A stretch of 64,000 nucleotides of DNA from Gammaproteobacteria bacterium. Lineage in GTDB: Bacteria > Pseudomonadota > Gammaproteobacteria > SURF-13. The position numbers and the translations under genes were made by a program. The stretch is taken from assembly GCA_003599485.1 (NCBI GenBank), contig QZKM01000027.1, positions 28,801 through 92,800 on the forward strand, in the 5' to 3' direction. Shown piece after piece: positions 35,327-55,876 of this stretch (position 1 is its first letter; every line of letters begins with the position of its first letter). A model generated the notes under the pieces. It was given only the letters and a program-made list of their open reading frames with translations. It was not told where the DNA came from and ran no database searches.

Positions 35327-35959
35327 ATGAAACGTCTGGCGTACTTATTTCTGGCGCTGTTCTGCGCCAGCAACGCGGCCTGGGCCATGGCCGAAGCGCC
35401 CGCATCGGCGCAGGAACTGGTGCAGAAACAAACCGAGCTCATGCTCAGCACCTTCAAGGCCCAGCGCGAGCAGATTACCAAAGACCAGCAGTTGCTGTAC
35501 AAGCTGGTGGACGAGATCGTGTTGCCGCACTTCGATTTTGAGAAGATGTCGAGCTGGGTGATCGGCAAACACTGGCGCAACGCAACGGGTGAACAAAAGG
35601 CGCGGTTTGTGCAGGAGTTCCGCACCCTGCTGGTGCGCACTTACGCCGTCGCCCTGTACGAGTATACCGACCAGCAGGTAGTCTATCTTCCCTCCAGGAG
35701 CGATCCGGCCGCCACCGAGGCCTCGGTGAAGACCGAGGTACGCCAGTCAGGCGGCGCGCCGCCCATTTCGATCAATTACGACCTTTACCTCAAAGACGGC
35801 GCGTGGAAGGTGTATGACGTGATCATCGAAGGCACCAGCCTGGTTACCAATTACCGCAGCAACTACGCGAGTGAAATCCGCCAGAACGGGCTGGACAGCC
35901 TGATCGCCAAACTTGCGGCGCGCAATCAGCAAAACGTCAAAACCAGCGCGAGTGAGTAA
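35327..35959 (+). CDS. mlaC: Periplasmic phospholipid-binding protein MlaC
   Basis: LVDEIVLPHFDFEKMSSWVIGKHWRNATGEQKARFVQEFRTLLVRTYAVALYEY. Confidence 0.95.
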   Translation: MKRLAYLFLALFCASNAAWAMAEAPASAQELVQKQTELMLSTFKAQREQITKDQQLLYKLVDEIVLPHFDFEKMSSWVIGKHWRNATGEQKARFVQEFRTLLVRTYAVALYEYTDQQVVYLPSRSDPAATEASVKTEVRQSGGAPPISINYDLYLKDGAWKVYDVIIEGTSLVTNYRSNYASEIRQNGLDSLIAKLAARNQQNVKTSASE

Positions 35960-36260
35960 CCTCAGCCCCGACCCGAATCAAGCAGGGCGTTACCTGCTGT
36001 CCGGCGAACTCACCTTCGACACCGTGCCGGCCGTGTACGAACAGGGCCACGCCATGTTCGCCACCCCCGCCCCTACCCTCATCTTGAGTTTTATCAACGG
36101 CGCGGCGCGCACTGACAGCGCGGGCCTGGCGCTGCTGGTGGAGTGGCTGCGGGAGGCGCGTCAGCACGGCAAAACCCTGCGTTTTGAAAACATCCCCGCG
36201 CAACTCAAGGACTTGGCGCGGGTGTCTGGTTTGGAGCGTGTGCTGCCGCTCGACACCTGA
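35952..36260 (+). CDS. mlaB: STAS-domain protein MlaB (GTG start)
   Basis: GELTFDTVPAVYEQGHAMF ... FINGAARTDSAGLALLVEWLREARQHGKTLRFENIP. Confidence 0.9.
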   Translation: MSNLSPDPNQAGRYLLSGELTFDTVPAVYEQGHAMFATPAPTLILSFINGAARTDSAGLALLVEWLREARQHGKTLRFENIPAQLKDLARVSGLERVLPLDT

Positions 36261-36262
36261 CC

Positions 36263-36576
36263 GTCCGCCGGAAAATCCTTTTCCGCGATTTTGGCGAACA
36301 TCTTCGAGCAGCTTTCCGCGTTTCAGAATTTCATCATACTATCGCTGCCCGTTTCTGAGCGGCGTGTTTTATTCGCTGGACTCCCTGCCGCCATTTTGGC
36401 AAACGGTTTCGCGTTTCAACCCGTTTTTCTATATGATAGATGGTTTTCGATACGGTTTTCTGGGCGCCCACGACGGGGCGCCTACCCTGGGCCTTGCGGT
36501 GAGCACCGGCTTTTTGTTGTTGATATCGCTGGTTTCAATATTTTTATTACACAAAGGTTACAAATTGCGTCATTGA
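36263..36576 (+). pseudogene. 3' remnant of an ABC-2 permease (YadH-like), truncated and frameshifted
   Basis: ILANIFEQLSAFQNFIIL in one frame, then FLSGVFYSLDSLPPFWQTVSRFNPFFYMIDGFRYGFLG...LLHKGYKLRH* in another; frame change near ctgcccgtttctg (about 36348). Confidence 0.85.
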
Positions 36577-36593
36577 AAATTCCATGGGCGAAC

Positions 36594-36636
36594 TGCGAAG
36601 CAGCGAGCGCCCAGCCAGGGATGGCTGGGCCGGTGC
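36594..36636 (+). repeat. 43-bp dispersed hairpin repeat, copy 1
   Basis: tgcgaagcagcgagcgcccagccagggatggctgggccggtgc; stem gcccagcca-ggga-tggctgggc; 40/43 identical to the reverse complement of 52901-52943. Confidence 0.85.
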
Positions 36637-36706
36637 GTAATTAGGTGGATGAAGTCCCGCCACGGACGGCCGCGACTGCTATCACAAGGACCATAAAGAA
36701 GAGATC

Positions 36707-36946
36707 ATGGAAACCAACACCATCAAGCACATGATTGAACAAGGCCTCGCGGACTGCCGCGCCGAGGTGACGGGCGACGGCACGCACTTCGAGGCAATCA
36801 TCGTAAGCCCGGCGTTCGCGGGCAAAAACTCCCTGGCGCGCCACCGCATGGTATACGCGGCGCTAGGTGAGGCCATGCGCTCCGCTATTCACGCCCTGTC
36901 CATGCGCACCTACACGCCCGACGAGCACGCGGCGCAGACCAAATAA
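36707..36946 (+). CDS. ibaG: BolA-family protein IbaG
   Basis: IKHMIEQGLADCRAEVTGDGTHFEAIIVSPAFAGKNSLARHRMVYAALGEAM; next to murA. Confidence 0.94.
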   Translation: METNTIKHMIEQGLADCRAEVTGDGTHFEAIIVSPAFAGKNSLARHRMVYAALGEAMRSAIHALSMRTYTPDEHAAQTK

Positions 36947-38215
<1,269 letters not shown>

Positions 38216-52815: not shown

Positions 52816-52900
52816 ACGGTTCAGACTCCTGTTAACCTGCGCTGGCTTGATCTATCATCAAATAATGCCATCCCTGGCGGAACTTCAGTAAAACCTCTCA

Positions 52901-52943
52901 GCACCGGCCCAGCCATCCCTGGCTGGGCGTTCGTTGCTTCACA
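52901..52943 (-). repeat. 43-bp dispersed hairpin repeat, copy 2
   Basis: Reverse complement tgtgaagcaacgaacgcccagccagggatggctgggccggtgc; 3 differences from 36594-36636; just 3' of the actB1 stop. Confidence 0.85.
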
Positions 52944-52945
52944 AC

Positions 52946-55138
52946 TCACCCTTCGGTGCGGCGGAACTGTTCGGCGGAAATGGTGCCCGCCAGTTTGCGT
53001 CCGCGTTGCGAGATGTTGTCGCGCCCGGCCTTGACCAGCATCTGGCGCTCGCCGGTGGGCGCGGCCTTGACGCGCGTGCCGTACAGCGCCAGCTCGCCGG
53101 TTCTGGCGTCGGTCACGGGGTTCAAAATCCTGAGCGGATTGGCGCCGCGGTTTTTGGCGTAACGGCCGTAGTCGTCATGGCCCTGCCCCATGGGTACGGC
53201 GATGGCGTCTGGATGCACGCCTTTATGGATAAAGGCCTTGACCTTGATCGCGCCCTGTTCGGAGGCGATCTCCAGCACGTCGCCCTCCTCCACCCCGAGC
53301 TGCGCGGCGGTCGAGGGATGAATCTCGGCCCACGAGTCCCACACCACCTTGGTGATCTGGTCCGGCGCCTCCTGTATCCAGGGCAGATTGGCGTGACGCC
53401 CGTCCCAGAACGACAGACGCGGCGAAGGTATGAGCGTAAGCGGATACTCGCCGCCCGCGGCAGGCGCAGAAAGGCTGATTCCACTTAGGGGTTTGACCTG
53501 CAACGCGCCGCCCTTTACTTCCACCTTGAGTTGGCCCTTTTGCAGCACCGACTGCCAGAACGCCTCGTCCGTCTGCCCGGCGGTTCTGTACTGCGCCGGC
53601 AGGCTGGTCACGGCCTGTTTCAGATAACCGTAATAATTGTTCCACGCGCCGTATTTGGCGGCATTGTGCGTTTTGAGCAGCGCGAGCAGCGCATCGCCCA
53701 GGCCCGGCGTGCCGGGATACAGCGTCTCCATCAACGGCTGCTGCAATCCAATCACGCCATCGGGCTGATAGGCGGGCGCGTGCGTGCCCCAGTCTTCCAG
53801 ATACGAGGCGACGGGCATGATGAGGTCGCACGCTGCCGCGGTCTCGTCCGGGAACTGGGTGAAGGCGACTTTAAACGGAATGTTCTTGAGACGGTCGGCC
53901 AGATTGAGCGCGGCGGGCGCGGTAAAGACTGGATTCGCGCCGTAGAAAAACACCACGTCGTGCGCCCTGTTATGCGCCGCCTCGGCGAAGGCGATGAGGT
54001 CGCGCGTGTTGCCGCTCTTGGCGGCAAGCTGCGGAAAGGGAAATTCGCCGCCGGAAGTAATGGTTTGCCCCGCGTTGCCGAGCATCACGTTGAGCAGCAT
54101 GATGGCGGCGGTGGTTTCATAGCCTTGCGTCTGCCCCTGCGCGCTATGGCCGGGCAACACCAGGCTGGGCGCGTGTTTCTGCAGCAGGTCGGCGAGCTGC
54201 ATGATGCGGGCCTCGGACACGCCGGTGATCCCGGCCACCTTGCTCGGCGCGTAATCACTGATCACGCCTTGCAGCACCGCCGGCGCGGTAACGCCGTTTT
54301 GCGCCAGTACGTACGCCAGACCCAGTGCCAGCGCGCCTTCCGTGCCGGGGCGGATGGCCAGCCACAGGTCGGCGTTGGCGCCGGTGAGCGACATGGCCGG
54401 CTCGACTTGAACCAGTATCCCGCGCGGGGCCTTGCGGAACTCTGCGTATTCGGTGGAGAAGTGCACCGGCGACAGCCAGGCGCCGAGGAAGTCCGCGCCG
54501 AACGACAGCGCCAGTTTCGCCTTGGCGAGATGCAGGCGCGGCATGGCCTCGCCGAATAAATCCCTGTTTACCGCCTCCCACACCGCGGAGTTAATCACCT
54601 CGTGGCCGTAGTGCTTGCCCTGCACCGCTTCGATATGCGCCGCCATGAGCGCCGCCTGATGGCCGCTTAACGTGCCGGTCAACCAGGCCACACGCCCTGC
54701 GCCCGCCGCGCCGGTTTTTTCCGCAATCAGCTTCCACGCTTCGTCCCAGCTGATGTCCACCAGCGCGCCGTCACGGCGCAGCCTGGGCGTGCTGTAACGA
54801 TCCGGGTTGTAATGGTTCTGCACCCCGGCCTGGCCCATCTGGCACAGCTTGCCGCGGTTGATGGACGAGCCGGGATTACCTTCCAGCTTCAGTACGCGCC
54901 CTTCGCGCACCTTGCCGTGGATGCCGCAACCCGCCGCGCACTGCATGCAGGTGGAGGCATACCATACGCCAACGCCGGGAATGGCGTACTCTTCGGGAGA
55001 CAGATAGGCGACGACTTCTTCCTTGCCCTCTTCCAGGGTGACGGTGGTGGGCAGGTCGCAGCCCGCGAGCGTGGCGCCCGCCGTGCCCCAGCCCATCAAT
55101 TGCAGAAATTCCCTGCGTTTCAGCTTCAGATTAATCAT
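52946..55138 (-). CDS. actB1: Alternative complex III molybdopterin-oxidoreductase-like subunit ActB1
   Basis: Tat-like KRREFLQLMGWG; CMQCAAGCGIHGKVREGRVLKLEGNPGSSINRGKLC Fe-S motif; molybdopterin oxidoreductase fold. Confidence 0.88.
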   Translation of the reverse strand: MINLKLKRREFLQLMGWGTAGATLAGCDLPTTVTLEEGKEEVVAYLSPEEYAIPGVGVWYASTCMQCAAGCGIHGKVREGRVLKLEGNPGSSINRGKLCQMGQAGVQNHYNPDRYSTPRLRRDGALVDISWDEAWKLIAEKTGAAGAGRVAWLTGTLSGHQAALMAAHIEAVQGKHYGHEVINSAVWEAVNRDLFGEAMPRLHLAKAKLALSFGADFLGAWLSPVHFSTEYAEFRKAPRGILVQVEPAMSLTGANADLWLAIRPGTEGALALGLAYVLAQNGVTAPAVLQGVISDYAPSKVAGITGVSEARIMQLADLLQKHAPSLVLPGHSAQGQTQGYETTAAIMLLNVMLGNAGQTITSGGEFPFPQLAAKSGNTRDLIAFAEAAHNRAHDVVFFYGANPVFTAPAALNLADRLKNIPFKVAFTQFPDETAAACDLIMPVASYLEDWGTHAPAYQPDGVIGLQQPLMETLYPGTPGLGDALLALLKTHNAAKYGAWNNYYGYLKQAVTSLPAQYRTAGQTDEAFWQSVLQKGQLKVEVKGGALQVKPLSGISLSAPAAGGEYPLTLIPSPRLSFWDGRHANLPWIQEAPDQITKVVWDSWAEIHPSTAAQLGVEEGDVLEIASEQGAIKVKAFIHKGVHPDAIAVPMGQGHDDYGRYAKNRGANPLRILNPVTDARTGELALYGTRVKAAPTGERQMLVKAGRDNISQRGRKLAGTISAEQFRRTEG

Positions 55139-55816: not shown

Positions 55817-55876
55817 AAAAAAGCCATCCATGGCCTTTTTTAGCCCGCAAAGCAAAAAGTGTCATTTTTGCTTTGC
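55817..55876 (-). promoter_or_regulatory. Tandem hairpins in the actA 5' leader
   Basis: gcaaagcaaaaa-gtgtca-tttttgctttgc (perfect 12-bp stem, 55847-55876) and aaaaaagccatccatggcctttttt (about 55817-55841). Confidence 0.6.

Follow-up and report, generated by a model that had tools for sequence, protein, structure and literature searches.

We found that the segment between mlaB and ibaG in the window, the whole stretch of 64,000 nucleotides analysed here, is very probably a pseudogene remnant left by ordinary loss of a YadGH exporter. The yadH remnant occupies positions 36283-36576, corresponds to the final third of an ABC-2 permease of YadH type and lies immediately downstream of the mlaB stop. 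The features of the locus are as follows (G000 is the genome of the window, G001 the sole same-genus genome in the comparison and G003 a genome of the same family).

35952-36260, + strand: mlaB (STAS domain), the intact upstream flank; Pfam STAS_2 match (2.4e-15), equal in length to G001 mlaB, 91% DNA identity.
36261-36282, + strand: junction filler, the deletion scar from the mlaB stop to the resumption of yadH; no match above shuffled sequence in the 1531-base interval of G001.
36283-36347, + strand: yadH remnant, first part, in frame 1, from G001 codon ~163; 89% alignment to G001 L066.
36348-36350, + strand: +1 frameshift by comparison with G001; one gap in a 95-base blastn alignment.
36351-36576, + strand: C-terminal section of the yadH remnant, read in the shifted frame and closed by TGA; PRK15066 5e-21, ABC2_membrane 4.8e-9.
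36585-36670, + strand: palindromic repeat of a dispersed family, lying between stub and ibaG; copies in G000 on C9, C1:81667, C16 and C45, and in G003.
36707-36946, + strand: ibaG (BolA family), the intact downstream flank; Pfam BolA match (2.9e-21).

Translation of the window placed the stop of the mlaB frame at 36260. Frame 1, beginning PSAGKSFSAILANIFEQLSAFQNFIILSLPVSE... at 36261, loses its likeness to YadH after PSAGKSFSAILANIFEQLSAFQNFIILSLP; the +1 frame, FLSGVFYSLDSLPPFWQTVSRFNPFFYMIDGFRYGFLG...HKGYKLRH*, takes over with FLSGVFYSLDSLPPFWQTVSRFNPFFYMIDGFRYGF... and runs through 36576. In the +1 frame the tail matched Pfam ABC2_membrane above the cut-off (4.8e-9) and the NCBIfam permease model NF011648/PRK15066 with 5.3e-21 at model positions 184-256 of 257, the C-terminal 73; its PRK15066 score is 75 bits, the cut-off for a whole protein being 225 and the intact G003 homologue itself reaching 224.3. 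Protein identity of the C-terminal part with intact family members is 61-64%. The match to the C-terminus of a YadH-type permease is far above chance, which bears out the first-pass annotation in its proposal of a split YadH C-terminus after mlaB. That annotation had the segment extending over 36261-36576; its end stands, but comparison with G001 showed that the likeness to yadH begins at ~36283, and the preceding bases match nothing above shuffled sequence. An intact exporter locus would carry a full-length open frame of ~260 aa and a partner ATPase gene, whereas the stub has ~100 codons, is frameshifted and lacks yadG.

The locus was compared in a set of 37 genomes, the window's own included. 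G001 is a thin metagenome-assembled genome (MAG FK_Sedi_A_Bin.151, contig coverage 1.5), in which contig C22 carries mlaD-mlaC-mlaB-yadG-yadH in this order, with yadG open (319 aa), and ends within yadH at codon ~194. The last ~38 codons of yadH are found on contig C103, so that this yadH is read as two fragments, ~86 bases between them being unseen; mlaB and the yadH pieces share 89-91% nucleotide identity with the window. In the four same-family genomes G002-G005, an open yadH frame of 264-334 aa stands directly upstream of ibaG, an ATPase-gene match lies between mlaB and yadH, and the mlaB-ibaG spacing is 1.8-2.0 kb; the yadG-yadH pair is intact in G003, and G002, G004 and G005 have the open yadH with the ATPase match. 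A check of sister genomes had been advised; since G001 keeps the pair after mlaB (over two contigs, its yadH in two pieces) and G002-G005 keep it between mlaB and ibaG, comparison of these sequences indicates that yadGH is ancestral and that its loss is confined to the lineage of the window. An ATPase and a permease had been said to lie between mlaB and ibaG in many gammaproteobacteria; this holds for the family, but yadH adjoins ibaG in just 2 of the 31 other class members sampled (G030 and G031). In G026 the gap between mlaB and ibaG is 109 bases, with no gene between. Searched by title and abstract, the literature yielded no report of yadGH inside mla operons.

From the end of mlaB to the resumption of yadH we counted 1531 bases in G001 and ~34 in the window. 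The missing DNA, ~1.5 kb, corresponds to yadG in its entirety plus ~162 codons from the start of yadH, in agreement with the large internal deletion of the pair that had been postulated. Alignment of the stub to G001 (89% identity) revealed exactly one additional base, at 36348-36350, which accords with the +1 indel proposed earlier. The yadH remnant thus bears two disabling lesions, a deletion of ~1.5 kb and a +1 frameshift, and because G001 keeps mlaB-yadG-yadH and an open yadH preceded by an ATPase gene still occupies the mlaB-ibaG interval in G002-G005, both lesions are by sequence comparison assigned to the window's lineage as derived. The filler bases after the mlaB stop matched neither strand of the deleted G001 interval better than shuffled sequence did. 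A near match of 17 bases at another place in the window lacked significance, since 6 of 100 shuffles were equally good, and neither microhomology nor a donor was identified for this short filler.

Alternatively, the chromosome might really carry an intact yadGH, with the draft having collapsed 1.5 kb and added a base. The genome is indeed a draft in 50 contigs (96% completeness, 1.69 Mb), and the G001 assembly itself has a visible fault in this gene, with the yadH tail plus a run of Ns fused into murA on contig C103. We nevertheless consider an error of assembly or sequencing improbable: two errors, independent and unlike in kind, would have to fall within ~70 bases, the junction has no N run and is 300 bases away from the repeat, the search of the other contigs of the draft genome found no orphan yadG or yadH 5' part, and the fault in G001 is accounted for by its contig coverage of 1.5. 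On C103 (L044 3960-4130), which looks chimeric, the yadH tail and N run lie inside murA, a portion of which is duplicated on both sides of them.

The pattern of substitution also bears on this question. As a baseline we compared the window with G001 over the intact neighbours mlaD, mlaC and mlaB and parts of murA, hisG and hisD (1529 codons); differences fell on the first codon position 92 times, on the second 78 times and on the third 324 times, as against 9, 4 and 7 in the stub. The third-position share is therefore 7/20 (35%) in the stub versus 324/494 (66%) in the neighbours (Fisher p = 0.008, on a small sample that includes differences predating the deletion or arising on the G001 side), and between intact homologues this share is 51-67% over the same stretch. 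A share this low is what relaxed constraint in a pseudogene would give, albeit on few differences (20). The missing third-position bias argues against an intact gene merely misassembled, and the pattern, with so few differences, agrees more closely with a pseudogene than with faulty assembly. It likewise weighs against continued translation of the stub, be it into a short membrane protein or through programmed frameshifting. A 130-aa ORF with a TTG start (36184-36576) does span the tail, but its start lies within mlaB and out of frame, the permease is short of nearly two thirds of its length and has no ATPase, and a coding-type substitution pattern is absent; we regard continued translation as highly improbable.

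Just 3' of the stub lies the palindromic repeat of ~85 bases (36585-36670), for which alignment identified four further genomic copies, plus two in G003. Its core, AGCGARSGCCMRGCCANGGATGGC, was found by pattern search at 11 sites in the genome, with none for the reversed control. Members of this repeat family (L078-L083) occur in the window at 36585-36670, 52867-52951 and 55823-55834 and also in G001, G003 and G004, some copies being near tRNA-Met and tRNA-Ser genes, and the G001 contig turns to Ns at about the repeat position. As the repeat lies away from the deletion junction, it is not needed to account for the deletion. An Rfam search of 35900-37000 gave no credible match, and RNA folding of 36577-36700 predicted a stable hairpin that is unremarkable (z = -1.5). 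Another idea is that the tail was kept for a cis-acting signal, a promoter or leader, serving ibaG-murA. Such a role would suit the final ~66 bases up to 36587, which differ from G001 at one or two sites compared with ~10% overall; yet that conservation comparison is short and post hoc, the repeat stands between the tail and ibaG, and a search for a sigma-70-like promoter was negative. A retained cis signal is accordingly unlikely, and slightly more doubtful still is the further proposal that the unusually conserved 3' end survives through an ibaG-murA control signal and that selection set the deletion boundary.

A search for a paralogous YadGH elsewhere had also been advised. Queried with intact YadG and YadH from G003, the draft genome of the window yielded no second pair, the best other matches being 47% identical for the ATPase and 25% for the permease. 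The nearest other pair, an ABC-2 pair on contig C21 (L001 305-2232), is NodIJ-like, its permease scoring above the NodJ cut-off and its ATPase having NodI as best match. A counterpart is present in G001 on C14, in addition to that genome's own yadGH, and we therefore rejected the C21 pair as a moved copy of the lost yadGH.

Ordinary gene loss remains our preferred explanation. The ancestral order would have been mlaFEDCB-yadG-yadH-ibaG-murA, and after the split from G001 a simple internal deletion of ~1.5 kb, from just past the mlaB stop to yadH codon ~162, would have taken out yadG entirely and yadH for nearly two thirds of its length. The leftover yadH tail also bears the +1 frameshift and would now be decaying, the deletion presumably having preceded the frameshift. 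The exporter, having been lost, was presumably dispensable, and its loss may have been tolerated for this reason and because mlaB and ibaG-murA were untouched. A YadGH-type exporter tied to the Mla phospholipid-transport operon would thus be dispensable in one lineage of a gammaproteobacterial family with small genomes; for annotation, no gene should be called at the stub, whose significance is otherwise small.

Compared with the YadH-type permease model (NF011648/PRK15066), the stub shares the C-terminal positions, whereas, measured against an intact permease gene of this type, nearly two thirds have been deleted and the remainder is frameshifted. The flanking genes and their order equal those of mlaB-yadG-yadH-ibaG in G002-G005 and mlaB-yadG-yadH in G001; in these five genomes, however, yadH is open with an ATPase gene ahead, and the window retains the tail alone. 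Deletion pseudogenes of small bacterial genomes combine a large deletion with a small frameshift in a dispensable gene, and the stub is alike in its large deletion, small frameshift and 1.69 Mb genome, with no notable difference.
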